Source: a virus
Length of the DNA: 32,110 bases
Reading direction: 5' to 3' (one strand)
Virus record (IMG/VR): IMGVR_UViG_3300006810_000202
Location: 1-32,110 of that record
Shown here in pieces: positions 16,784 to 32,037 of this stretch; positions within the stretch are counted from its first letter, which is position 1, and every line of letters starts with the position of its first letter. Below the pieces are notes generated by a model. The model was not told the origin of the DNA, did no database searches, and saw nothing but the letters and a program-made list of their open reading frames with translations. The position numbers were made by a program, and so were the translations under genes.

Positions 16784-19051
16784 TCAAGATGTGAAAGAAA
16801 CTTTTTGTCTCGGCCACGCTCTACCTGAAGTCGGTCTTCGTTTAAATGTTGTTTGCGGACTACCACCTGCGATATATTTACCTGTTCCCATACGTACTCC
16901 CCATGGAATATGTACTCTTAAAGGTGGTGTTCCATATAATTCTGTTAAATCAGCTCCACCATTTTGATAATCATTATCAGAAACGCGATTAACGTTACTT
17001 GATGAATATAATTTAGATGATGCTACATTTCCTGCTGGATAAATTGCTGGAGGAGTTTGTTTACTTCCTGCAACATTTGAAAAATTAATTCCTTCCATAC
17101 CTTCACCAATTAAATTTTCTTTTGCTGATTGCACCATTAACTCTTTTAATTGTGCAATACTTGGATATACTCCTCGTTGAGTAAAGTAATGTTCTAAAAA
17201 TACTGTTGCACATCCAGCTGCAACCGGCGCAGCACAACTTGTTCCACTAAAATATCCCCACTTACCATCTAAGAAAGTAGTTGTAGGATATGATGTCCAA
17301 GTATAAGCACCATAAGCAGCAAAATCAATCATTGGACCTCGACTACTATAATCGTCCATTAATCTATTAACGTCGTCTTGTTGACAAGCTGCAATTGTAA
17401 ATTGATTATCTCCACCTTCTACTTCAATTCTAAGTGGATAATATGACGCTTGAGCACCCTGTGTTGAATTAGTAAATTGATTTCTACCATCACCATCTAA
17501 AGTATTTGTTACATAACTAACGCCAGCATCTACTCTTACTGTAGTATTAAATCTTGGGTCTGTTGGACTTACAGCAACATGTGCATTATTACCTGCACTC
17601 TTAAAATGATAAATTCCATTATAGCTATTATATTGAGACATTACTGTATCAAAGAAAGAACCTCGAGATTGGTCAGGAATAGAAATCATCCATTTATCAG
17701 TACTATCTGCAGGGTCTTGGATAACTCTCGGAATAATTAAGTTATCTGCAAATGCTCTATAATCTCCTTGCCAAGAGCTTGTGTCTTTTATACACGAAAT
17801 ATTACCAGTCATAGCTGGATGGAAATCACAAACATAATCATAATTAGTTGTAGCGTCTGGCATTGTAAATGTGACTGTACTTGTTCCTTGACCACTTACT
17901 CCTGGAACATTACTACCTCCAGTAGTTCTGACATATAATGGATGTCCACCAGAAGCTTGGTTGTCAATAATCACAGTATCTCCTGGATTACATACAATTC
18001 CTCTATTATTAATAGGAGAGTTTGCAGATGTTCCTTCGTAAACTCTATCTTCACCAGTAACTATGTACGCGCTTGAACCTGAAGCTGTCATTGTAATATT
18101 CCAGGTTGCTGCTTGGATATCACCACGATTTATTGTTGTTGAATTACCATCTTCATCATAAGCTACAATTTGATTTATATCATCAATAATATAGAATTTT
18201 TCGTGGTCAACACTAGAATATCCCCATGCTCCAGTTACGACTGTTGCATTACGAACACCTGTTGCTGGATTTACTGCTTTAGTAATATGCCACTGAAGTG
18301 CGCCATAATACGCATTAGATACACCATCAGATAAGTATAAAACTCTAAGTGTTGATTTTTTACCCCAACCGCAATACTTGCCGCCAGCTGCACTTAATAC
18401 ACCAATCGCATGAGATGAAAACCAGTCTGAACTAGGATTTGAAACTTGATTGTTACGAGCTGAACTTAATGCTCCGGAAACTGTTGACCATTCCATTGGA
18501 ACAAACTTAGAATTAGTAGAATCCCATTCTTCAAAATCTACATGGTCTTCGTGACCTGCATTACCTGAGAATGGAGTACCTGCTTCAATAGCAACAATAT
18601 CTACATATTCACCAAGGAAATTACTTTTAGTTGCATCTTCAAATTCAGTATCACCAAAAAATCCTATCGGTGGAGTTGCAGGATTTAGTCCTGTGCCATC
18701 TAATTCAAACTCACTGGTAAAATACATATTTGTTCCAGTATAGTCTTTACCATTTTTTGTGCTTGGTGATGATGGTGTATATCTTGTAATGTGACTAACA
18801 TCAGGTCCAGTATATCTTGGAGTTGATGATGGATACGTAATTAAATCAACAACAGGCTTTTCAGGTAAACATTCAATAACTTTATCACTTGTATTTAATT
18901 GAGCCGATTCTTCATCAGTTAATCTCATACATATAATAGCATCCCAAAGGTCAAAGTTATTGACCACTTCCATTCCAGCTGCTTCATTAGCTAAGAACGA
19001 AGCTTCGTCTGTACCTGGTTGGAGGATTACGTTATGAATACGTTTAGCCAT
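16784..19051 (-). CDS. Subtilisin-like (S8) virion protease with inserted cupredoxin domain
   Basis: A 755-residue subtilase-fold protein in a baseplate gene cluster. Residues 1-66 resemble an I9-type propeptide that would chaperone and inhibit the enzyme. The core shows a His box at Ser-Ser-His214-Ala-Ile-Gly-Val, the oxyanion Asn at Ala-Gly-Asn488 and the nucleophile in Gly-Thr-Ser605-Cys-Ala-Ala-Pro. The strand that should carry the catalytic Asp reads Val-Ala-Ile-Glu156-Ala-Gly, so Glu replaces Asp. Residues about 305-421 are an insert with a cupredoxin pattern: His360, Cys408, His411 and Met414, with the C-x2-H-x2-M spacing of amicyanin. Cys354 and Cys420 flank it. No signal peptide or membrane segment is seen, which fits a virion protein released by lysis. 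It starts 3 bp after the gp10-like gene. It might mature virion proteins, cut host-surface proteins, or be a non-catalytic scaffold. Substrate and activity are unknown. Confidence 0.85.
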   Translation of the reverse strand: MAKRIHNVILQPGTDEASFLANEAAGMEVVNNFDLWDAIICMRLTDEESAQLNTSDKVIECLPEKPVVDLITYPSSTPRYTGPDVSHITRYTPSSPSTKNGKDYTGTNMYFTSEFELDGTGLNPATPPIGFFGDTEFEDATKSNFLGEYVDIVAIEAGTPFSGNAGHEDHVDFEEWDSTNSKFVPMEWSTVSGALSSARNNQVSNPSSDWFSSHAIGVLSAAGGKYCGWGKKSTLRVLYLSDGVSNAYYGALQWHITKAVNPATGVRNATVVTGAWGYSSVDHEKFYIIDDINQIVAYDEDGNSTTINRGDIQAATWNITMTASGSSAYIVTGEDRVYEGTSANSPINNRGIVCNPGDTVIIDNQASGGHPLYVRTTGGSNVPGVSGQGTSTVTFTMPDATTNYDYVCDFHPAMTGNISCIKDTSSWQGDYRAFADNLIIPRVIQDPADSTDKWMISIPDQSRGSFFDTVMSQYNSYNGIYHFKSAGNNAHVAVSPTDPRFNTTVRVDAGVSYVTNTLDGDGRNQFTNSTQGAQASYYPLRIEVEGGDNQFTIAACQQDDVNRLMDDYSSRGPMIDFAAYGAYTWTSYPTTTFLDGKWGYFSGTSCAAPVAAGCATVFLEHYFTQRGVYPSIAQLKELMVQSAKENLIGEGMEGINFSNVAGSKQTPPAIYPAGNVASSKLYSSSNVNRVSDNDYQNGGADLTELYGTPPLRVHIPWGVRMGTGKYIAGGSPQTTFKRRPTSGRAWPRQKVSFTS

Positions 19052-22732: not shown

Positions 22733-24607
22733 TTAATAGCTACTACTTGAATTGCTATTTGTTAATGTTCCAATTGCAGAAGAAGATGATGTTGTACCAG
22801 AAGCTGGTTTTTCATCAAGTAACATATTGACTTGTACATCCTCGTCTCGTATAATAAACACACGACCTTGTGGTGCAGATATGTCACTCTTCTTAGCGCG
22901 AACCATAATTTTAATTGCGCTGCCATCGAATGCTTCAACTTCAACTGTATTTAAAGTCACTACACCTTTAGTATAATCTACTGTTCCAACATTTGGTTTA
23001 AATATTGAAGGATTTGTTATATCATCAATAATAAACATTAAATTACCTAAACCATCATCTTGTATATAAACACATGTTCCATCTACATCAAATGGTGTAC
23101 TCTTTACTGCAGGTTTATATTCACTAAATCCATTTGCTTCTCTAAATGGATATGGTTTAACTAATTCAGTTTCAAATTTAAATGATGGTGTTTCTTTAGT
23201 ATTAACTACTGGACTCCAATCAATAATTGGCATAATAGTTAATGCTGTACTTTGTATTGCAGTATCAACAGCATCAACTTTAGCAGTCAGTTTACTTCCT
23301 CGTAATTTTGTATTAAAATCTTCTAATGTGTTTTCTGAATAATAATTAATTGCAGTTCGTACTAATAGCTCGAGTTCGTCTTTTGATTTTTCTGTACTCT
23401 TATTACTATAAACGATATCAGCAACAACATCTGCATATACAAATTTTGTTTGTACAAATATTGGTTCAATACCTAACGGGCTCTTTTCTGCCAAATAGTT
23501 AATATAAGTATTTGCAAGTGTTGAACTAATACTTGTTGTTTCTGAATCTAAATAAACTGAAACAGCAACACGACCAAATTGAGGTGGGTCAAGCTCTTCG
23601 CCACCATAAGCACTCACTGCTGTAATTTCTGGAAATGCTTGTTGTAATAATATTTCATAATCTTTTGAAGTCACTGCGCGCTCTTGGACTGCTAATGATT
23701 TAGGTGCAAAGTATCGAATAGATTCCATACTTTCGCGCTCTAATCCTCCAGCAGCTGCTGAAATTGTTGTAACAGAAATTGAAGCCCCATCAATAAAACT
23801 TGCGCTAAATGAGTCTGCACCATTTGCTAATTCACCAGATGTAATACGATATCGTACCCTTACATCCTCAAACTCTTCTGGCTGTAAACCAAATTCGTTT
23901 TTACCAAAATAAACTGCATATCTGTTATCTAAATATGGCTCTAAATAAAATACTTTATCGTCTGGTCTAACACCATAAATTGTATTAGCTCGAGTAAAGA
24001 TATTTCTATTTTCTGTTTCTTCAGCATCAACAAATACAACGATAGAGTCTGTATCAACTTCGTCATTAGTTAATTGAACACGAAGAACACCATCGGCGTC
24101 AACAATAAATCCTTCTCTTTGGAACGATGCTAACATTGACCCTTCAAATATTTCAACATTATCTGCTATAAATGTGTCGGGTGCTGTTCTTCGAGCAACG
24201 TATGTTTGATTAGTTACAAATGTAAATAAATCACCTTGATAGTTTGCAGAAAAAGTAGTATAGGTCGGAATAGTAATTGTGCTATTTGTTTCATTCTCAT
24301 CTGTAATTGTAACTTGAACGACAGCTTTAGCAGATTTACGAGACCTTGGAATATAGTTTAATTCTTTTGCATGAGAAACGATAGAGTTCTTTAAGACGGC
24401 CGAGTCAAGAAACATCTCATTCATTGTCATGTTCGTATAATAATTATTTTGAAAAGAGTTGAATGCTAATACATCAAGTAATGCACTCATGTTTGAGCCT
24501 TCAAAGTTATAATCTTTGAATTGCGTCTGCGTCTGCAGATATGCTTTCAGCTGAGTTTTGATAGAATCAAAATCAAGCTCTGTAATTGGAGTTTTTGGAT
24601 TGGCCAT
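22733..24607 (-). CDS. 6: Baseplate wedge protein gp6
   Basis: A 624-residue homologue of T4 gp6 (660 residues), the wedge protein that closes the inner baseplate ring as dimers. The N-terminus has the family pattern: Thr-Glu-Leu-Asp-Phe-Asp, Gln-Phe-Lys-Asp-Tyr-Asn-Phe-Glu-Gly-Ser-Asn-Met-Ser, Leu-Leu-Asp-Val-Leu-Ala, Asn-Glu-Met-Phe-Leu-Asp-Ser-Ala, and Ala-Lys-Glu-Leu-Asn-Tyr-Ile-Pro. Around residues 290-330 is the J-like segment with Glu-Ser-Met-Glu-Ser-Ile-Arg and Ala-Pro-Lys-Ser and then Arg-Ala-Val-Thr-Ser-Lys-Asp-Tyr-Glu. It starts one base after the gp25 stop, so translation is probably coupled. The C-terminal tail is Ser/Thr-rich and disordered. Confidence 0.93.
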   Translation of the reverse strand: MANPKTPITELDFDSIKTQLKAYLQTQTQFKDYNFEGSNMSALLDVLAFNSFQNNYYTNMTMNEMFLDSAVLKNSIVSHAKELNYIPRSRKSAKAVVQVTITDENETNSTITIPTYTTFSANYQGDLFTFVTNQTYVARRTAPDTFIADNVEIFEGSMLASFQREGFIVDADGVLRVQLTNDEVDTDSIVVFVDAEETENRNIFTRANTIYGVRPDDKVFYLEPYLDNRYAVYFGKNEFGLQPEEFEDVRVRYRITSGELANGADSFSASFIDGASISVTTISAAAGGLERESMESIRYFAPKSLAVQERAVTSKDYEILLQQAFPEITAVSAYGGEELDPPQFGRVAVSVYLDSETTSISSTLANTYINYLAEKSPLGIEPIFVQTKFVYADVVADIVYSNKSTEKSKDELELLVRTAINYYSENTLEDFNTKLRGSKLTAKVDAVDTAIQSTALTIMPIIDWSPVVNTKETPSFKFETELVKPYPFREANGFSEYKPAVKSTPFDVDGTCVYIQDDGLGNLMFIIDDITNPSIFKPNVGTVDYTKGVVTLNTVEVEAFDGSAIKIMVRAKKSDISAPQGRVFIIRDEDVQVNMLLDEKPASGTTSSSSAIGTLTNSNSSSSY

Positions 24608-24608
24608 C

Positions 24609-25025
24609 TTATCTTATCCTTTCTAATATTAAATCAAGTGTTATTGGTCTATCAACATTCTTGATATAAAACTGTATGTTTACATTAACTGTGTTATCAT
24701 CATACCTACTACTTGCAGTTACATCTATAATTTCTGCTCTCGGTTCGTATGTTCCTATTGTATCTTTACATCTAGTTTCAATAACTTTTAAAACACCAGG
24801 CGTAATATTTTCAAATAATAATCCTTTTATACCGCCACCAATAAATGGTTGCATTAACCTTTCGCCTGGGTCTGTTAAAATTAAATTTTTAATGCTTTGT
24901 TTAACTGCATCTTCGTCTTTAAGTAAAGCAATATCTTTTGATATAGGACTAATACGCAAATCTTTATGGAAATCAGTATATAAATTCGGCTTTTTAGTAA
25001 CCGGTGTTTTTGTACTTATTGTCAT
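24609..25025 (-). CDS. 25: Baseplate wedge protein gp25
   Basis: A 138-residue homologue of T4 gp25 (132 residues), the small wedge protein that nucleates sheath assembly and is shared with contractile injection systems. It shows the family core: Asp-Phe-His-Lys-Asp-Leu, Asp-Glu-Asp-Ala-Val-Lys-Gln-Ser-Ile-Lys-Asn-Leu-Ile, Asp-Pro-Gly-Glu-Arg-Leu-Met-Gln-Pro, Gly-Gly-Gly-Ile, and the hallmark Glu-Pro-Arg (residues 94-96). The start overlaps the stop of the M15 gene by four bases (ATGA), and gp6 follows one base after its stop. Confidence 0.95.
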   Translation of the reverse strand: MTISTKTPVTKKPNLYTDFHKDLRISPISKDIALLKDEDAVKQSIKNLILTDPGERLMQPFIGGGIKGLLFENITPGVLKVIETRCKDTIGTYEPRAEIIDVTASSRYDDNTVNVNIQFYIKNVDRPITLDLILERIR

Positions 25026-26665
25026 CGTACTATATCTCTTGTATCTAAATGTATATGATTCTTATATATTATTACGCCTTTAAAGCCAGATTTTCTAGCA
25101 TTTTGTGTAAAAACCTCAGTCCAGTCATCTCTTTCAAGAGATGTTCCTAAAGCTGCATTTAATGCTTCTGCAGCTTGGTCTTCTGCACTTTTTGATTTAA
25201 AAGCAGCATCCATTTTAATATCTATAACAAGCCCACTTAGGTGAGCATCATCTGGTCGCTTTTTATATTGAGTATATTCTGTACTAACCCAACCATTTGT
25301 AATAATCATTTTATTACCATAAATTTCTTGTAATCTTTTTAGATAAACTTTAACATCTAAATCTAAATGTGTATATGCAGGAAATCCTAATCTTTCTTTG
25401 TCTTCATCATTTTCTTTTTCTTCAAAAACTTTACCTTCAACACCAAAAGTTCCGTCTGAACCTTTCATTACAGCCATACAATTAGGTAAATTCTTATAAT
25501 CCTCAGCTGTTATTGGTTTAATAGCAACTTTTTCATAACCACTCAAAGATAGCGCATCATCAGATTCCCATATTCTATTTAGGCTATTTATGTCGTCTGA
25601 CCTCTGCTCAGGTGAAAATCTTATTGCTCCATTACGAATTGCTGTAGATGTATTTTGATTTCCAATTGCTTGTAATCTTTTAATTACTCTTTGATATCTG
25701 TTTCCATAATCATCTAATGGATTCTTAATTTCATTTAGTAATGCTTCAACGTTTGTAGCAAGAGCACAAAAACGTGCAACTAAGAATTGCATTGTCTGTA
25801 AATCCATGTAATCAAATAAACTAAAAGCATAATCCATAAACCCTTTGAGTTTATCTTTCATTTTCTTTTGTGTTTCTTCAGTCAGTTCATTACACATACG
25901 CTCTTTACGAGTCATTATATACTTTGTATGAGATTTGTCAATACCTACAACTAAATCTCCTATCTGGTCTAATATATCAAAGTTATCAATAGCATCCATT
26001 ACCTTCTGATAAATCTTAACTACAGAATCAATAATTTTTTCTTGGATTTGCTTCATTAATGCTTCTACAATTTTTTGCTCGATAAATGCTTTATCAATTT
26101 GACCTTCGTATTTTCCTTTTAAAGCAAGAAATTTATTGTATATTGCAATTGCATCTTGGATTAATCCATCGACAACTCCAATTAAATCATAGAACGCATC
26201 AATCTGATTAAACAGATTATTCATACTATTACAGAATCCACCAAGAATACTTTCAGATATATCACCAGTATAGTATTGTTCTAAATCACTAAGTAGTTTA
26301 TCAGGTACTTGGTTTTGAATACCATTGGGTGAATAATTAAAAGCTTCTGCAAAGTCTGCAACTTCAAGAGTACTAATATTACCTTGCTGATATCTGTTAT
26401 TTAATGCAGGATAGTTTGATGTATCATATCCTCTAACTGTACCATTTATATAATTACCTGCTTCATAAACACCATTACCAAATTTGTTTATCATATTAGC
26501 GATTGGATTTTTATCTGATTCAGCAATAATATTATCAGCAAGCTCTTTTGCAAAAACATCAATTTGATTTAATGTATATGAGCCATCAGAGTTTACTGTA
26601 GGACCAGGGTTAATTCTTTGCTTATTAAGATATGTTTGACTTCTTCTGTCTACGCAATGAGCCAT
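25022..26665 (-). CDS. Hub-associated structural protein with C-terminal M15-type peptidase domain
   Basis: A 547-residue protein. Residues 1-330 are mostly helical, with no signal peptide and no family I recognise. A C-terminal domain, about 430-547, carries the M15 signature: Ala-His475-Leu-Ser-Gly-Leu-Val-Ile-Asp482 fits the His-x6-Asp zinc motif, and Ile-His539-Leu-Asp-Thr-Arg fits the distal His strand of the M15_3 type. These enzymes cut peptide cross-links or stems of peptidoglycan. Its place between the lysozyme-less gp5-like spike and gp25 suggests that it opens the cell wall during injection, the task of the gp5 lysozyme domain in T4. The start overlaps the spike-gene stop in TAATG. 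The zinc-ligand reading is from sequence; peptidoglycan as substrate is inference. Confidence 0.82.
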   Translation of the reverse strand: MAHCVDRRSQTYLNKQRINPGPTVNSDGSYTLNQIDVFAKELADNIIAESDKNPIANMINKFGNGVYEAGNYINGTVRGYDTSNYPALNNRYQQGNISTLEVADFAEAFNYSPNGIQNQVPDKLLSDLEQYYTGDISESILGGFCNSMNNLFNQIDAFYDLIGVVDGLIQDAIAIYNKFLALKGKYEGQIDKAFIEQKIVEALMKQIQEKIIDSVVKIYQKVMDAIDNFDILDQIGDLVVGIDKSHTKYIMTRKERMCNELTEETQKKMKDKLKGFMDYAFSLFDYMDLQTMQFLVARFCALATNVEALLNEIKNPLDDYGNRYQRVIKRLQAIGNQNTSTAIRNGAIRFSPEQRSDDINSLNRIWESDDALSLSGYEKVAIKPITAEDYKNLPNCMAVMKGSDGTFGVEGKVFEEKENDEDKERLGFPAYTHLDLDVKVYLKRLQEIYGNKMIITNGWVSTEYTQYKKRPDDAHLSGLVIDIKMDAAFKSKSAEDQAAEALNAALGTSLERDDWTEVFTQNARKSGFKGVIIYKNHIHLDTRDIVR

Positions 26666-28380
26666 TATTCTTCAGCCTCCAACGATTCACAAACTCCTAA
26701 AGCATATCCCAGTGAGAAATAACCGCCCGGTACTATTGAACATCCATGGCTTGCTGGTTGAGGCATTTGAATCCTAGGCATTCCCAATCCGCCTTCTGGT
26801 AATACATTAATATCATATCCTGCTAATGCCTCCAGCGGTGATGTGAGTACTGTAGCAGCAAATCCTGCTCCATTTCCTTGTGGGGCCACAGCACCTGAAA
26901 TTATTCCTGGAGCAGGTGGTGCAATTGGTGTAGAAACACCCGGTGGATTTATTGCAGGTAGTGTTGGAAATGCTGGTGGAGCTACCGGAGCAGTGCCACT
27001 TGGAGCACCAGAGCCTACAGGACCAGTATAAGCCCAAGCAGATAATCCTGCAGTACTAATTCCAAGAGCAGCTATTGTATTAGCAGAAACAGCGCCAGGA
27101 ACTGTTAAGGCTCCAATTTGCCCGGTAGTAGCTAATAGTGCAGCAGTATTAACTGAACCTGCATTCCATAAACCACTGAATGAACCGCTTGCCGAAAGCA
27201 TATTTACAGTTGGTGCGGTAACACTAAATCCTCTAGATGTCTGTGACCCTGTACTTCCAACTACTGGAGTTAGTGATACGGGTGATGTTCCTAATGCAGT
27301 ATTAATAATACTTCCAATTGCATATATGTGCGTATCTGCAGCTGATGTTAAGCGAACTGCTTTATTTGCATAAGCACTAAATGTAAGCATTGCTGTATTT
27401 TTAATATGGCCAGAAACCATATTGATTTGTCTTTCACCTTCGATAGCAACTTCGTTTTTACCAAAAATAGTTACGCTTTCAGCATTACCTTCGATTTTAG
27501 TTGATGCACCACGCATGAACAAGTGGCCGCCAACATTAAGATAAGATTGACCACCCACTGTAACTTCGTTTTCGCCGTGAACAATTCGTTTATAGTTACC
27601 CATAATTTCTTCTGTCTTGTTACCTTTAACATAGACATGAGAATTACCATTAATAGTAACTACTGAATGACCTGATGATTCGTGTTTAGTTCCAATATTA
27701 ACTTCATAGCGATCACCTTGTGCTCTTTCTTTAAATGAGCCTATTGCATCAATTTCAATATATGAACCTGAGTTGTGTGTAATTGTAATACGTTCTGCAT
27801 TTGGAGTATCATCAATTTCAATACTGTGTCTTGCTGTTTCAATTACTCTGTTGTATGGATATTTTGCAGCATACGCTGGTGGTGGTTCATTCCATGTTAC
27901 ATCTGAATCTGGAATTTTTTGTCTTTGTACTGCGTTTGAAAATCTTGGTCCAATATAAGTTGTATCTAAATCTTCAGCTCTTACTAATTTTGATTTTTGA
28001 ACTTGACCCACATCTCTAGGTGCACCCATCATTGATAAAATTTCTGGTTCAAACGGTGGAACAATACCCCACTTTGCTGCTTTAGGGTCGTGCTTTTCTG
28101 TATATTGACCGGGTACTGTACCCAATATCATTGGATGTTGACCTTCATCTCCATCTAAAAACATTCCAAAAACAAATGAATTAATTGGTGGTGGAGCATG
28201 GTTAACATCATAGTTTCCTGCTACACAAATAGCCCAAGGTAATAATGCTGTTGGTATTTCTTCGTTATTTCCATGGATACCAAAAGCACGTACTTGTACT
28301 CGCCCTTGGTTGGACTCATCTAAATTGTTTTCAACTACACCAATGAAAAACATTGGATTTGCTATTCCCATGCCTCTCAT
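26665..28380 (-). CDS. 5: Baseplate hub spike gp5-like, without a lysozyme domain
   Basis: A 571-residue protein. Residues 8-95 form an OB-fold of the gp5/VgrG type (Phe-Ile-Gly-Val-Val-Glu, Gly-Arg-Val-Gln-Val-Arg, Pro-Trp-Ala, Gly-Asp-Glu-Gly-Gln-His-Pro, Leu-Gly-Thr-Val-Pro-Gly). Residues about 180-340 are spike beta-helix, opening with Glu-Thr-Ala-Arg-His-Ser-Ile-Glu-Ile-Asp-Asp-Thr-Pro and continuing with Val-x-Gly and Ile-x-Gly strands. Residues 450-505 are rich in Pro, Gly and Ala. T4 gp5 (575 residues) places its lysozyme between the OB-fold and the helix; here only about 85 residues lie there and no lysozyme motif is seen. The trimeric spike would pierce the outer membrane under the gp27-like hub. 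The start overlaps the hub stop (TAATG). Confidence 0.88.
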   Translation of the reverse strand: MRGMGIANPMFFIGVVENNLDESNQGRVQVRAFGIHGNNEEIPTALLPWAICVAGNYDVNHAPPPINSFVFGMFLDGDEGQHPMILGTVPGQYTEKHDPKAAKWGIVPPFEPEILSMMGAPRDVGQVQKSKLVRAEDLDTTYIGPRFSNAVQRQKIPDSDVTWNEPPPAYAAKYPYNRVIETARHSIEIDDTPNAERITITHNSGSYIEIDAIGSFKERAQGDRYEVNIGTKHESSGHSVVTINGNSHVYVKGNKTEEIMGNYKRIVHGENEVTVGGQSYLNVGGHLFMRGASTKIEGNAESVTIFGKNEVAIEGERQINMVSGHIKNTAMLTFSAYANKAVRLTSAADTHIYAIGSIINTALGTSPVSLTPVVGSTGSQTSRGFSVTAPTVNMLSASGSFSGLWNAGSVNTAALLATTGQIGALTVPGAVSANTIAALGISTAGLSAWAYTGPVGSGAPSGTAPVAPPAFPTLPAINPPGVSTPIAPPAPGIISGAVAPQGNGAGFAATVLTSPLEALAGYDINVLPEGGLGMPRIQMPQPASHGCSIVPGGYFSLGYALGVCESLEAEE

Positions 28381-29789
28381 TATTTGTTATTACCTCTCAA
28401 ATCTGCACCCGCTGTACTCCAATCGTACTTGGTTAATATTAAACCTGTTGTCATGTTACCATCTTCTACATTATTATCTACTGAATTAATTAAATATTTA
28501 CCACTTAATTGTTTGTTCTGGCCCGTTTTACTTGTTATATCGTTATCCATTACATTAACGTTAATAACTTCTCCGGCTTTTAAATCAAGCCTTCCAGAAG
28601 TTAATGCACTAGTTGCAGTAGCTTGTGAGTGGCGAGTATAAAAACTTCTTTTTGCAATTAAATCTCTGTAGTGCTTATCAGGTCTATAATATTCTTGTTT
28701 TAATGGACCTACAAACGAATTTGTAAATGTTCTATAATCTCTTATAAGCATATATTGTTTAGCATTTTTTGATGAAAAGGTTGCATCAATAAATTCTTTA
28801 GTGTGTTTATCGTTTTTAATATTTGCTCTTTTTCCACTCGAATCGTTAAAATCTTTTATGTAATCTTCATATTTGTAATCGTGCTTTTTCGCAGTTCTTC
28901 TCAATATATCAACTTCAAGTATTGAATTATAATATGTACCACCATTCATATCTCCACCGACATCAACTCTATCTGCATTAGCAAAATGACTAAACGCGCT
29001 TATTTGTTGTTCATGCGCATCTGGAGATAAATCTATAAATGCTGAATACTCAAATTTTTTAATAGGGTTTAAGTGTCCGTAATTATAAAGCCATTCATCA
29101 CTTACAAAATAATATCCATCAAACGTTTCAAAAAATCTATATAAAGAACCTTTTGATTGTGATTGACCTATTGTTTGTCTTGCAACAAATTTTAATGCTG
29201 CAGCTGGAGGTAAATCAGGTATCGTTATTGACATATAATCATCTGTCAATTCAAGATAGAATCTACGTTTATCACTTAATGCATATACTTCTGTTTTAGG
29301 AGGTAATTCTTCACCTTTCTTTTTAGTAGTTTTTTTCATATTTTTATCAAAGTTATCTTTGAATAAATCTTTTACTATTGTACTAGCAGCTGTTCTAGAA
29401 AATCCTTTGACAATACTTTTTTTACTTGCTTCAAAACTTGGTTTTGTAATCCAATGTAAAGTATATGCTATTCCTTTTAATTGTTGTCTTATTTCAATGT
29501 CAGAAATTTTGTAAATTTGGCAATTTAATTTTACTTCTGTTTGTAAGTCATAACATAATAAAACTAATTCTAATTGTTCTTCACCTCTCAGCGGTAATTG
29601 TTCTAATAATCCAGTACCATCATAAATGTCTATTGTACCAGATATTGCAGCATTTTGAATTGATTGGTTTATACCAAACGAACCAATCAACGCTGTAATG
29701 TTTTCAGATTTAGCTCCTTCTGCACCAAAAGGAGTTATTTTTGCAGATTTAACATCACAATGAGATGGATTAAATACTCCTTTTTCCAT
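28380..29789 (-). CDS. 27: Baseplate hub protein, gp27-like
   Basis: A 469-residue protein placed directly before the gp5-like spike. It has the hub-type start: Asn-Pro-Ser-His-Cys-Asp, Gly-Thr-Ile-Asp-Ile-Tyr-Asp-Gly-Thr-Gly-Leu, Leu-Arg-Gly-Glu-Glu-Gln-Leu. A strand with Ile-Tyr-Lys-Ile-Ser-Asp follows near residue 107. The middle contains Phe-Phe-Glu-Thr-Phe-Asp-Gly-Tyr-Tyr-Phe-Val-Ser, the hub-domain pattern that surrounds the tube-like ring. T4 gp27 has 391 residues. Similarity is by pattern and position rather than by strong identity, so the role is likely and the symbol provisional. Its stop shares a base with the spike start, as expected for a complex in 1:1 ratio. Confidence 0.78.
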   Translation of the reverse strand: MEKGVFNPSHCDVKSAKITPFGAEGAKSENITALIGSFGINQSIQNAAISGTIDIYDGTGLLEQLPLRGEEQLELVLLCYDLQTEVKLNCQIYKISDIEIRQQLKGIAYTLHWITKPSFEASKKSIVKGFSRTAASTIVKDLFKDNFDKNMKKTTKKKGEELPPKTEVYALSDKRRFYLELTDDYMSITIPDLPPAAALKFVARQTIGQSQSKGSLYRFFETFDGYYFVSDEWLYNYGHLNPIKKFEYSAFIDLSPDAHEQQISAFSHFANADRVDVGGDMNGGTYYNSILEVDILRRTAKKHDYKYEDYIKDFNDSSGKRANIKNDKHTKEFIDATFSSKNAKQYMLIRDYRTFTNSFVGPLKQEYYRPDKHYRDLIAKRSFYTRHSQATATSALTSGRLDLKAGEVINVNVMDNDITSKTGQNKQLSGKYLINSVDNNVEDGNMTTGLILTKYDWSTAGADLRGNNK

Positions 29790-29791
29790 AA

Positions 29792-30049
29792 TTATTCACT
29801 CACAGAAGAAGCAAACTCTCTTTCGAGTTGCCCCAAAAATGTTTTGTCAAACAAATAAATCTCTTTCTTGTTATTGTTTAATGTTTCTTCGTACTCATAT
29901 ATACGATAAGGTTCCCATTCTTCTGGAATAATTCTTTTAATAATAATTTTTGCACCCTGTTCTGTTCGCATAATCACTCTATCTTCTCTACGTAAATAGA
30001 TTGTTCTAAACGATTCGGGTGCTAATAAAATTTCGTCTACTGCTGCCAT
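29792..30049 (-). CDS. Unknown 85-residue protein in the baseplate cassette
   Basis: A small acidic/basic mixed protein with beta-strand pattern in the first 60 residues (Phe-Arg-Thr-Ile-Tyr-Leu-Arg-Arg-Glu-Asp, Lys-Ile-Ile-Ile-Lys-Arg-Ile) and a short helical C-terminus. I do not recognise the family. It lies 3 bases after the gp53 stop and 2 bases before the hub gene, in the same direction, so it is almost surely translated with the baseplate proteins. A role as a small hub or wedge connector is inference from place only. Confidence 0.75.
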   Translation of the reverse strand: MAAVDEILLAPESFRTIYLRREDRVIMRTEQGAKIIIKRIIPEEWEPYRIYEYEETLNNNKKEIYLFDKTFLGQLEREFASSVSE

Positions 30050-30052
30050 TTG

Positions 30053-30427
30053 TTATACCTTCTTCACGTAGTAAATGATGTTATCATCATTGTTAGGGTC
30101 ACGAGTCCAGTCAATAACATCTTCTCCAACTTCACCAGATTGTTCTGTGTATTTTTCTACTAAATAATCGTTGAATGTTTGTGGGTCCATTGGCCACTCA
30201 TGATATGGGTCAATAATATTGTTAGCCATATAAACTAACCAAACATAATCTACTGAACCATAATAAAAATTTGCTATGTCTTCTGCGCGTTCACCTTCTG
30301 AAACTGTATAAGGATAATATAGATATGGATTGTTAGATACAGCACGAACAAAGTTGGAGCGTCTAGAAATATCTCTTACTCTGCGTCCTTCGTATTCGAT
30401 TATTGGAAAATTTTCAAAATATTTCAT
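30053..30427 (-). CDS. 53: Baseplate wedge protein gp53
   Basis: A 124-residue wedge protein. It shows the LysM-like core of gp53: Glu-Arg-Ala-Glu-Asp-Ile-Ala-Asn-Phe-Tyr-Tyr-Gly, Tyr-Val-Trp-Leu-Val-Tyr-Met-Ala-Asn, Ile-Ile-Asp-Pro-Tyr-His-Glu-Trp-Pro. T4 gp53 has 196 residues with the corresponding blocks (Ala-Asn-Ala-Ile-Tyr-Gly, Tyr-Trp-Val-Leu, Asp-Pro-Tyr-Tyr-Gly-Trp); this one lacks most of the C-terminal part. In T4 gp53 joins adjacent wedges to the central hub. The start overlaps the gp48-like stop by four bases (ATGA). Confidence 0.92.
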   Translation of the reverse strand: MKYFENFPIIEYEGRRVRDISRRSNFVRAVSNNPYLYYPYTVSEGERAEDIANFYYGSVDYVWLVYMANNIIDPYHEWPMDPQTFNDYLVEKYTEQSGEVGEDVIDWTRDPNNDDNIIYYVKKV

Positions 30428-31506
30428 TTTAGTCCTGTAATATTGCCTGTATCTTTGTCGGTGTATGCATAATCGTCTTGTGTATGAATTTGGATTTCGC
30501 TAAATCCTATTGTTAATGATACTGCTGCAGGTACACCACCTTTTATAATTTCTGGCATTCCACCTGCACCATAATCTACTGTAACATTACTAATCATTGC
30601 TCTTTTAAATCTCATGAAATGTTTTTCTTGTACACCCAATAAATTTAACTCTACAACACTAGGATATTTTAAAAATGCTCTTTGCAATCCTGCAACGCTA
30701 TCAACACCATCTACTTGAGGTAATGATTTAGCTTTTAAGAAGTTTACAATCTTTGTAATATTTTTGGTGTCGTCTTCGTTTGAAGGATATAAATCCCAAG
30801 AAAAAGTAAAGTTACGCAAGTCAACACCACTAAAGTTTAATGTTTCTTGTGGGTTTACAGTTCTTTCACCAATAACACCCATTGATTTTGCTATCTCTCC
30901 ACTAATAAAGTTACGGCCTAAATAGGCTGCTATAGCTGCAGCTTTATTTGCATCTTGTCCTGCCATTTTCATTAGACCTGTGCTTTGTGCTTTTAATTTT
31001 TCTGCCAATGCTAATGGGTTATCAATAAGGTCTCTACCTATGGTTCTAACACCCTCTAAAAAGTCTTTTGCAACAGCTTTTGCGTTTTCAGCAAAATTAC
31101 CATCTCCATTTAAACTAGCTAATCCACTAGCAACTCTTTCATATAAAAAATCTCTTTCGAATTGATTTACTCTTATGTTTAAACTGTCTGTTAACTGCCT
31201 AGGAAAAGGAAGTTCTATTGCGGTAAAAGAATCTATTTCTGGAATTGCATTAAGTGTATCTACAAATGTATAACCACCCTCATTAAACTCAACATCAGTT
31301 GCGCTAGCACCTCCTACGCCAACCTTATCTCCAACTTTAGTTCTAATAGTATTTACATATGCATTATAATTATAATCTTTAAATTGCATTAAGAGACCGT
31401 GAGGCATTGGCTTCGTAGGAAACGACATATATGCAGTTTCCCCTAGCGGCTTACCATTACCAAAAGCATTTCGTCTTTGTTTAATTAACTCTGGTCTTGC
31501 TGTCAT
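30424..31506 (-). CDS. 48: Baseplate tail-tube protein gp48-like
   Basis: From the ATG at 31506 the protein has 360 residues, like T4 gp48 (364 residues), which caps the hub and starts the tail tube. The C-terminal half has the family pattern Phe-Thr-Phe-Ser-Trp-Asp-Leu-Tyr-Pro-Ser-Asn-Glu-Asp-Asp, then a helix (Ile-Val-Asn-Phe-Leu-Lys), then beta strands ending Ser-Leu-Thr-Ile-Gly-Phe-Ser-Glu-Ile. An upstream in-frame ATG at 31713 would add 69 residues, but it would overlap the oppositely directed head-completion gene and lie above the late promoter at 31548, so I chose 31506. T4 gp54 is related in place and role and is the main alternative name. Confidence 0.82.
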   Translation of the reverse strand: MTARPELIKQRRNAFGNGKPLGETAYMSFPTKPMPHGLLMQFKDYNYNAYVNTIRTKVGDKVGVGGASATDVEFNEGGYTFVDTLNAIPEIDSFTAIELPFPRQLTDSLNIRVNQFERDFLYERVASGLASLNGDGNFAENAKAVAKDFLEGVRTIGRDLIDNPLALAEKLKAQSTGLMKMAGQDANKAAAIAAYLGRNFISGEIAKSMGVIGERTVNPQETLNFSGVDLRNFTFSWDLYPSNEDDTKNITKIVNFLKAKSLPQVDGVDSVAGLQRAFLKYPSVVELNLLGVQEKHFMRFKRAMISNVTVDYGAGGMPEIIKGGVPAAVSLTIGFSEIQIHTQDDYAYTDKDTGNITGLK

Positions 31507-31520
31507 TATAGTCTCGTTGT

Positions 31521-31528
31521 AATAAATA
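31521..31528 (+). promoter_or_regulatory. T4-type late promoter motif (AATAAATA) before the gp4-like gene
   Basis: AATAAATA (extended to AATAAATAGTAA) stands 48 bp upstream of the ATG at 31576, in the right-pointing direction. It differs from the T4 consensus by one base. Only 19 bp separate it from the motif at 31548-31555 on the other strand, and the two face each other. Confidence 0.5.
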
Positions 31529-31547
31529 GTAATTGGACATTTTAGAT

Positions 31548-31555
31548 TATTTATA
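31548..31555 (-). promoter_or_regulatory. T4 late promoter, exact TATAAATA, before the gp48-like gene
   Basis: The minus strand reads CCGTATAAATAATC, with the perfect T4 late consensus octamer, in the spacer between the two divergently placed gene groups. Transcription would start about six bases downstream, giving a leader of roughly 35 nt to the ATG at 31506. It would drive the long baseplate operon (48, 53, 85-residue gene, hub, spike, M15, 25, 6, 764-residue gene), where no other late motif or terminator was seen in the gaps. Confidence 0.7.
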
Positions 31556-31575
31556 CGGAGTTGCGAAAATAGATT

Positions 31576-32037
31576 ATGGCTTATAGAGGGAGATTTAAAC
31601 CCGCAAATCCGCAGAAATACAAAGGAGACCCAACTAAGATTATTTATCGGTCTTGGTGGGAACGAAATGTATTCTCGTGGCTTGATAAACATAAAGATGT
31701 GATATGGTGGCAATCAGAAGAAGTCATTGTTCCGTATAGGTCACCAATAGATGGAAGAGTACATAGATATTTTCCTGATGTTATTGTTCATAAATATGAT
31801 GGAAATGGTAAGAAGCATACTGTAATGATAGAAATTAAACCTTATAAACAAACGCTTCCACCAAATCCTGCAAATAAAAATAAGACACCTACAGGTCGGG
31901 TGTCGCGAAGATATCTTAACGAGGTTAAGAATTATGGAATCAATAGCGCAAAATGGAAAGCAGCTCGGTCATACTGTGCAGACCGCGGTTGGCAGTTTGT
32001 AATTATGACAGAAAAAGACGGAATAGCAGGTAAATAA
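31576..32037 (+). CDS. 4: Head completion protein, gp4 family (nuclease-like)
   Basis: A 153-residue protein of the T4 gp4 (gp50/gp65) head-completion family, needed to finish filled heads before tails join. Marine homologues begin like this one (Arg-Phe-Lys-Pro, Asn-Pro-Gln-Lys-Tyr-Lys-Gly-Asp-Pro). The fold core looks like a PD-(D/E)xK nuclease: Tyr-Phe-Pro-Asp68, then Ile-Glu86-Ile-Lys88, then Gln at 92, after a Tyr-Arg-Ser-x-Trp-Glu helix near 24-29. The C-terminal part has Asn-Ser-Ala-Lys-Trp-Lys-Ala-Ala and a final strand. It probably trims or processes DNA ends at the portal. The stop shares a base with the next ATG (TAATG). Confidence 0.9.
   Translation: MAYRGRFKPANPQKYKGDPTKIIYRSWWERNVFSWLDKHKDVIWWQSEEVIVPYRSPIDGRVHRYFPDVIVHKYDGNGKKHTVMIEIKPYKQTLPPNPANKNKTPTGRVSRRYLNEVKNYGINSAKWKAARSYCADRGWQFVIMTEKDGIAGK

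Follow-up and report, generated by a model that had tools for sequence, protein, structure and literature searches.

We analysed a stretch of 32,110 bases, a fragment deposited as IMG/VR virus record IMGVR_UViG_3300006810_000202 (the window), and focused on a gene for a predicted M15-type zinc peptidase that adjoins the gene for a gp5-like central spike. As shown in Table 1, both genes belong to a baseplate cluster of the T4 superfamily on the minus strand, in the order gp48-like, gp53-like, gp27-like, gp5-like, M15 protein, gp25 and gp6, with more wedge genes and fibre genes downstream of gp6. The spike and M15 genes meet at GAATAATGGCT, where the start codon of the M15 gene lies inside the stop of the spike gene (TAATG), and the last four bases of the M15 gene are also the first four of gp25. 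An earlier interpretation made from the letters only (the sequence-only reading) had given the coordinates, strand and TAATG overlap of the two genes correctly, and had proposed that the wall-cutting function moved from the spike to its neighbour.

The gp5 protein of phage T4 is the textbook entry enzyme, with a lysozyme domain between its OB fold and its trimer/beta-helix part. In the spike of the window, a linker of 61 residues joins a gp5-type OB fold to a gp5-type trimer/beta-helix part, and the lysozyme domain between them is missing. The BLASTP alignment showed that residues 97-157 of the spike (61 residues) replace 263 residues of T4 gp5, lysozyme included. Pfam revealed no hydrolase domain in the spike, and PDB sequences and the PHROG families called 'baseplate hub subunit and tail lysozyme' matched nothing but its gp5 OB and trimer/helix parts; the gp5 Pfam matches of the spike fall below the curated cut-offs. 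The absence of a lysozyme had been noticed in the sequence-only reading, which put about 85 residues between the OB fold and the beta-helix. The short gap was borne out, while the number depends on the domain cuts and is 61 by BLASTP. An unrecognised enzyme in the C-terminal tail of the spike was also considered. Such tails matched no library, and 17 aligned tails from spikes of this kind keep no Glu, Asp or His, their invariant residues being P131, N159, P196, P198, Y210, G214 and G218; we consider an enzyme there unlikely.

Judged from family profiles and a structure model, the C-terminus of the M15 protein is an M15-type zinc peptidase of predicted activity. A profile of 28 family members matched 1LBU, a zinc DD-peptidase (4.2e-5), a VanY-like carboxypeptidase (0.0015) and hedgehog proteins (from 0.0017), all within the C-terminal part of the family. 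In the profile alignment, the H and D of the motif superpose on the motif of 1LBU, where we take them to be zinc ligands. The family shows the M15 zinc-ligand pattern HxxxxxxD ... H, and H475, D482 and H539 were kept in all 65 distinct rows of at least 480 residues (window included, identical rows merged before counting), as well as in 34/34 rows of a second set, which includes Sinorhizobium phage phiM12 (19% identical). When Pfam was applied to the 28 aligned members, PF08291 (Peptidase_M15_3) was found in 19 and PF05951 (Peptidase_M15_2, MepK-type) in 11, and phrog_25247 'peptidase' matched all 28, the proteins of two groups being close to the PHROG's own. These results agree with the sequence-only reading, which had named the same three residues as the zinc site of a peptidase domain at the end of the neighbouring gene.

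The structure model was built from 28 sequences and had a mean predicted local distance difference test score (pLDDT) of 74, with 65-93 for residues 393-547; an earlier model from 14 close sequences was poor (pLDDT 38). In VIA, residues 393-547 matched 1LBU with a Z of 7.4 (root-mean-square deviation 3.3 A, 107 aligned residues), followed by LysECD7 (6.3), VanX (6.3), ChiX (5.5), LdcB (5.4) and MepA (5.3), although the tool warns that a Z below 8 may mean a mere common arrangement. The best match of the model in a viral structure library was a phiM12 protein named murein endopeptidase K (2.4e-8), and the A1 profile against the PDB gave nine matches at chance level. Residues 10-344 are predicted to be helical, as had been read from the sequence. 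This region found only helical-bundle proteins in VIA (best Z 8.0, a bacterial dynamin), which does not imply a novel fold. Among its cysteines, C145 and C300 occur in 65/65 rows and C4 in 63/65, the other two being gapped there.

The genomic place of the M15 protein was examined in 139 distinct contigs from two gp6-anchored IMG/VR scans, the second of which was represented by its best 80 of 448. A hidden Markov model (HMM) search found the M15 protein immediately ahead of gp25 in 119 of the 120 contigs with at least 240 bases there, 12 contigs without a gp25 match and 7 with fewer than 240 bases before gp25 being left out. In the 120th contig (L125), an open reading frame (ORF) reads by eye like the end of the M15 domain. 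Directly upstream of the M15 gene, gp5 was found in 82/88 cases (HMM; counting M15 genes that span 400 codons or more and have more than 200 bases upstream). In the remaining six, a short upstream ORF looks by eye like the end of a spike, and two of these ORFs matched enzymes in Pfam. The M15 gene of L016 is broken into two ORFs (L016:5117-6732) by a frameshift, which may be natural or an error of assembly, and this contig was excluded from the alignments and from the arginine count given below.

The M15 protein of phiM12 holds the same place between gp5 and gp25, and the homology of this type of protein spans the helical N-terminus and the M15 domain (BLASTP 2e-10 over residues 83-542; A1 profile 4e-10). 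The M15 protein of the window matched no phage record; with phiM12 and L076 as queries, full-length relatives (at least 80% covered) were found in 7 of 50,697 phage records, all from four Sinorhizobium phages. No M15 gene was present between gp5 and gp25 in Caulobacter phage Cr30 or Stenotrophomonas phage DLP6, and no relatives of the protein were encoded in bacterial genome contigs.

Many of the M15-bearing relatives have an enzyme-like domain at the C-terminal tip of the spike, unlike the middle slot used by T4. The first type is lambda-lysozyme-like, and its profile of 11 sequences (A3) matched 1AM7 at 2.5e-7; the best PDB sequence match of A3, ahead of lambda lysozyme, was a '66 kDa protein' (11mn_A, 1.5e-8), and an NCBIfam search with A3 gave no match. 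The phiM12 tip is of this type, as its record notes a muramidase and the near-identical phiN3 is part of the A3 profile. The second type is GH19-like and the third is a GH24 lysozyme (Pfam 6.3e-18). The fourth is a domain common to two contigs (L111:2600-3199 and L145:2949-3545), possibly an undescribed hydrolase. It had looked SleB-like by eye, an assignment that was dropped when Pfam and PHROGs (both run on L111 only) and PDB sequences returned no match. In the window and its clade, called tip-less here, no enzyme was recognised at the tip; some of these labels come from spikes truncated by the start of the contig, of which as few as 76 residues are left (L136).

To place the loss, gp25+gp6 trees of 69 rows and 75 rows (the careful tree) were rooted with six other T4-like phages. 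The lack of a tip enzyme appeared in both as one change nested inside enzyme-bearing lineages, with the L111/L145 tip counted as an enzyme; otherwise at least one more change is needed. Sister rows carry different tip types, lambda-lysozyme-like in L089 and L102 and GH19-like in their partners L098 and L108, suggesting that domains were swapped at the tip. The GH19-like tips of L098 and L108 are related to the phiM12 endolysin (L171:35128-35760; 31% and 34% identity, 6.8e-10 and 3.3e-12), which looks as if lysis and entry modules may exchange domains. The idea that the wall function was transferred from the spike to its neighbour was rejected, because the same M15 gene also stands beside enzyme-bearing spikes. 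Since glycosidase-bearing spikes, that of phiM12 included, have this gene as their neighbour, it most likely predates the loss. This suggests that, of the two enzymes, the M15 peptidase would be the older, and that its counterpart on the spike disappeared instead of moving.

In the profile alignment, 1LBU and 4MPH share an M15-motif arginine, which has a role in substrate binding. The arginine was kept in 24/24 tip-bearing rows and in only five of the 44 tip-less ones (L069, L073, L075, L117 and L165), being replaced in the other 39, among them the window with Val460. Only one pair of rows is independent (about one event), so that no statistical claim is made on the correlation of arginine and tip, and we treat it as a lead. 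The tree positions of L073/L075 and L117/L165 suggest that the arginine was lost after the tip. These observations hint at an altered specificity of the peptidase in the tip-less clade. A bolder proposal, which we regard as unlikely, is that the companion peptidase was re-specialised after the glycosidase loss, the arginine of the substrate-pocket motif SxYRS giving way to a hydrophobic or other residue with the zinc site intact; a large uncultured clade of the T4 superfamily would then open the wall of its hosts with one peptidase whose specificity has changed, perhaps towards an uncommon cross-link.

Taken together, we think that the M15 protein is probably a tail enzyme of the hub or baseplate which acts at entry, and which was once one of two until the spike glycosidase was lost. 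As a predicted virion component, it would most likely be held on the hub by its helical N-terminal part, while its C-terminal zinc peptidase would cut peptide bonds or cross-links of the host peptidoglycan. Cutting of peptides rather than glycans, as put forward in the sequence-only reading, is what the enzyme family predicts, and the strict baseplate synteny makes a role in entry likely. The former partner, a glycosidase carried by the gp5 spike on its C-terminal tip, would have been swapped between relatives and have disappeared on the way to the clade of the window. With this loss, the peptidase would remain the one wall enzyme recognised in this baseplate.

Several results weigh against this interpretation. 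The M15 protein of the window by itself matched no Pfam family at E<=0.01, its whole chain gave no Foldseek match in the PDB at E<=0.001 (the best enzyme was the VanY-like 4MPH), and the VIA scores are moderate. In the 69-row tree, the branch uniting the tip-less phages had 62% support in the Shimodaira-Hasegawa-like approximate likelihood ratio test (SH-aLRT), and in the careful tree two tip-less groups meet two lambda-type groups at an open fork, so that two losses, or another order of events, are possible; the single change also depends on how the L111/L145 tip is counted. No lysis enzyme was found in seven longer tip-less records, which makes a role of the M15 protein in lysis, or a double role, possible. 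Finally, an old report of lysozyme activity in T4 gp25, of which the window has a homologue, is quoted in the excerpt of PMC5259590.

The gp25 report would also fit a different account, in which the peptidase acts at entry and the tip-less clade keeps its glycosidase in some other place, be it gp25, the tape measure, a further tail protein or a fold of the spike tail that went unrecognised. The window is fragmentary and lacks the tape measure gene, the L111/L145 tip domain matched no library, and PF00182 missed the phiM12 endolysin, all of which leave room for such an enzyme. On the other hand, no glycosidase was seen in the 15 window proteins scanned with Pfam, the 17 tip-less spike tails lack an invariant Glu, Asp or His, and family searches of the tip-less records (seven; six for PF00959 and PF18013) found nothing. 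We regard a glycosidase elsewhere as a real, though not very likely, possibility, and the peptidase as the presumed sole wall enzyme.

A role as lysis endolysin, alone or combined with entry, would make the location in the baseplate cluster incidental. M15-type endolysins are not foreign to such phages: gp101 of the T4-like Morganella phage MP1 is a 14.5-kDa M15-matching 'endolysin' that appears in a mass-spectrometry table in the excerpt of PMC5384007, 18/28 family members matched phrog_894 'endolysin', and LysECD7, an endolysin, was among the structure matches. No other lysin was found in the seven tip-less records, where searches with A3, PF01464, PF07486, PF00182, PF01510 and the phiM12 endolysin gave nothing, as did PF00959 and PF18013 in six of them. 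These records are fragments, PF05838 matched no control genome and is uninformative, and the chitinase-like endolysin annotated in phiM12 escaped PF00182 (a false negative), so that the lack of a lysin is weak evidence. Moreover, phiM12 carries a separate annotated endolysin at 163127-163759, about 95 kb away (annotation of 78-178 kb and the baseplate region), the enzyme domain of the M15 protein follows some 340 conserved helical residues, and the place of the protein between gp5 and gp25 is constant. A lysis role is in our judgement quite improbable. Least probable of all is a baseplate assembly or maturation factor, whose domain would trim phage proteins or be structural so that entry needs no wall enzyme from it: the strict synteny with hub and wedge genes, the conserved helical region, a weak tape-measure PHROG match in 13/28 members (perhaps mere helical composition) and a contractile phage without a recognisable wall enzyme, described in the excerpt of PMC11948020, are compatible with it, whereas the triad conserved in every one of the 65 rows, the several peptidoglycan peptidases among the structure matches and the M15 domain beside Phage_lysozyme2 in the spike protein of phage vB_OspM_OC are not what it predicts.

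The probable entry enzyme was then compared with known systems. In the Sinorhizobium phages phiM12, phiM7, phiM19 and phiN3, 'peptidase M15' (SmphiM12_144) adjoins gp5 as in the window. phiM12 shows the same order gp48-gp53-gp27-gp5-M15-gp25-gp6, the same triad and homology in both regions of the M15 protein; in phiM12, a small opposite-strand ORF separates M15 from gp25, and one ORF separates gp25 from gp6. It differs in its sequence (about 19% identical), its muramidase/lambda-lysozyme-like spike tip, the kept motif arginine and the separate annotated endolysin. T4 gp5 shares the OB fold, the trimer/beta-helix part and the gp53 and gp6 neighbourhood with the window, but its lysozyme domain is part of the spike, whereas the recognised wall enzyme of the window is a peptidase encoded by a separate gene. 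With 1LBU, LysECD7, ChiX, LdcB, VanX, MepA and PF05951, the M15 domain of the window has the fold and the zinc-ligand pattern in common, while in contrast to 1LBU-type peptidases the clade of the window has the motif arginine replaced and the domain fused behind about 340 helical residues.

Ochrobactrum phage vB_OspM_OC, also of the T4 superfamily, has Peptidase_M15_3 in its central spike protein (gp5, PhiOC_p064), similar to the M15 gene of the window, but there it is fused into gp5 after the OB fold, in the slot used by T4, together with Phage_lysozyme2; this gp5 is called a tail-associated lysozyme in the excerpt of PMC7139368. Two genes after it, a 194-residue ORF (L018:8446-9030) showed a weak match to the M15 C-terminal profile (7.2e-6). 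Methylophilales phage Melnitz has two adjoining gp5-like genes (L023:4021-7064), the first with an OB fold and a partial VanY, the second with an OB fold, a trimer part and a weak C-terminal M15-like match. The VanY match of the Melnitz OB protein is sub-threshold, and the Melnitz and Cr30 spikes gave weaker, sub-threshold M15-like matches. According to the excerpt of PMC5259590, the gp5-like protein of the Rak2-like phage CBB bears a lysozyme at its C-terminus and may also contain a peptidase domain, of the M23 type, and tip enzymes on such spikes are thus already known; its domains lie in one long protein with an M23-type peptidase, whereas the window has a separate M15 gene. In pelagimyophages, gp5 is described as strongly divergent (excerpt of PMC7029224). 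No description of a hub-adjacent M15 enzyme in T4-like phages was found in the titles and abstract openings of the Creative Commons-licensed PMC literature.

Table 1 Features of the baseplate gene cluster in the window, with their positions and the basis of each assignment.
Feature	Position	Strand	Basis and remarks
gp48-like tail tube cap	30424..31713	-	phrog_230 1.7e-36; TTG start, N-terminal extent unsure
gp53-like baseplate wedge protein	30053..30427	-	Phage_gp53 7.1e-7; phrog_232
gp27-like hub protein	28380..29789	-	phrog_350 2.7e-48; same place as phiM12 gp27-like gene
gp5-like spike without lysozyme	26665..28380	-	phrog_430 2.7e-57; T4 gp5 in PDB 5e-18
Spike OB fold, residues 8-96	28093..28359	-	BLASTP to T4 gp5 7-107
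61-residue linker, at the place of the T4 lysozyme	27910..28092	-	BLASTP to T4 gp5
Spike trimer/beta-helix part, residues 158-294	27499..27909	-	BLASTP to T4 gp5 371-541
Spike C-terminal tail, residues 328-571; place of the tip enzyme in relatives, none recognised here	26668..27399	-	
M15 protein, 547 residues	25022..26665	-	
Helical N-terminal region, residues 10-344	25634..26638	-	structure model; phrog_25247 matches residues 73-305; putative docking role
M15-like peptidase domain, residues 393-547	25025..25489	-	family profile, model, structure comparison
Val460 codon, aligned with the motif arginine of tip-bearing relatives	25286..25288	-	
His475 codon, predicted zinc ligand	25241..25243	-	
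Asp482 codon, predicted zinc ligand	25220..25222	-	
His539 codon, predicted zinc ligand	25049..25051	-	
gp25 wedge protein	24609..25025	-	GPW_gp25 2.2e-12
gp6 wedge protein	22733..24607	-	phrog_219 6e-139

Two further observations were made in this cluster. The gp53 gene is apparently split (29792-30427, minus strand), as the ORF at 30053-30427 corresponds to positions 2-126 of phrog_232 and the ORF at 29792-30049 to positions 150-192. On the same strand, positions 16784-19051 encode a tail-fibre-like protein of 755 residues (phrog_15006) that contains a subtilase domain (Peptidase_S8, 1.6e-11) and the serine motif GTSCAAP, which is a protease within the baseplate/fibre cluster.

All these results suggest that the entry device of a large uncultured group of relatives is assembled from separable parts, namely a constant hub-adjacent peptidase and a spike-tip enzyme which may be exchanged between close relatives and may be lost. 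It is predicted that phiM12 would enter its host with two enzymes, and that the spike glycosidase would be dispensable in the clade of the window. For annotators, the PHROG name 'baseplate hub subunit and tail lysozyme' does not imply a lysozyme in a spike such as this one, and the gene that follows may encode the wall enzyme.

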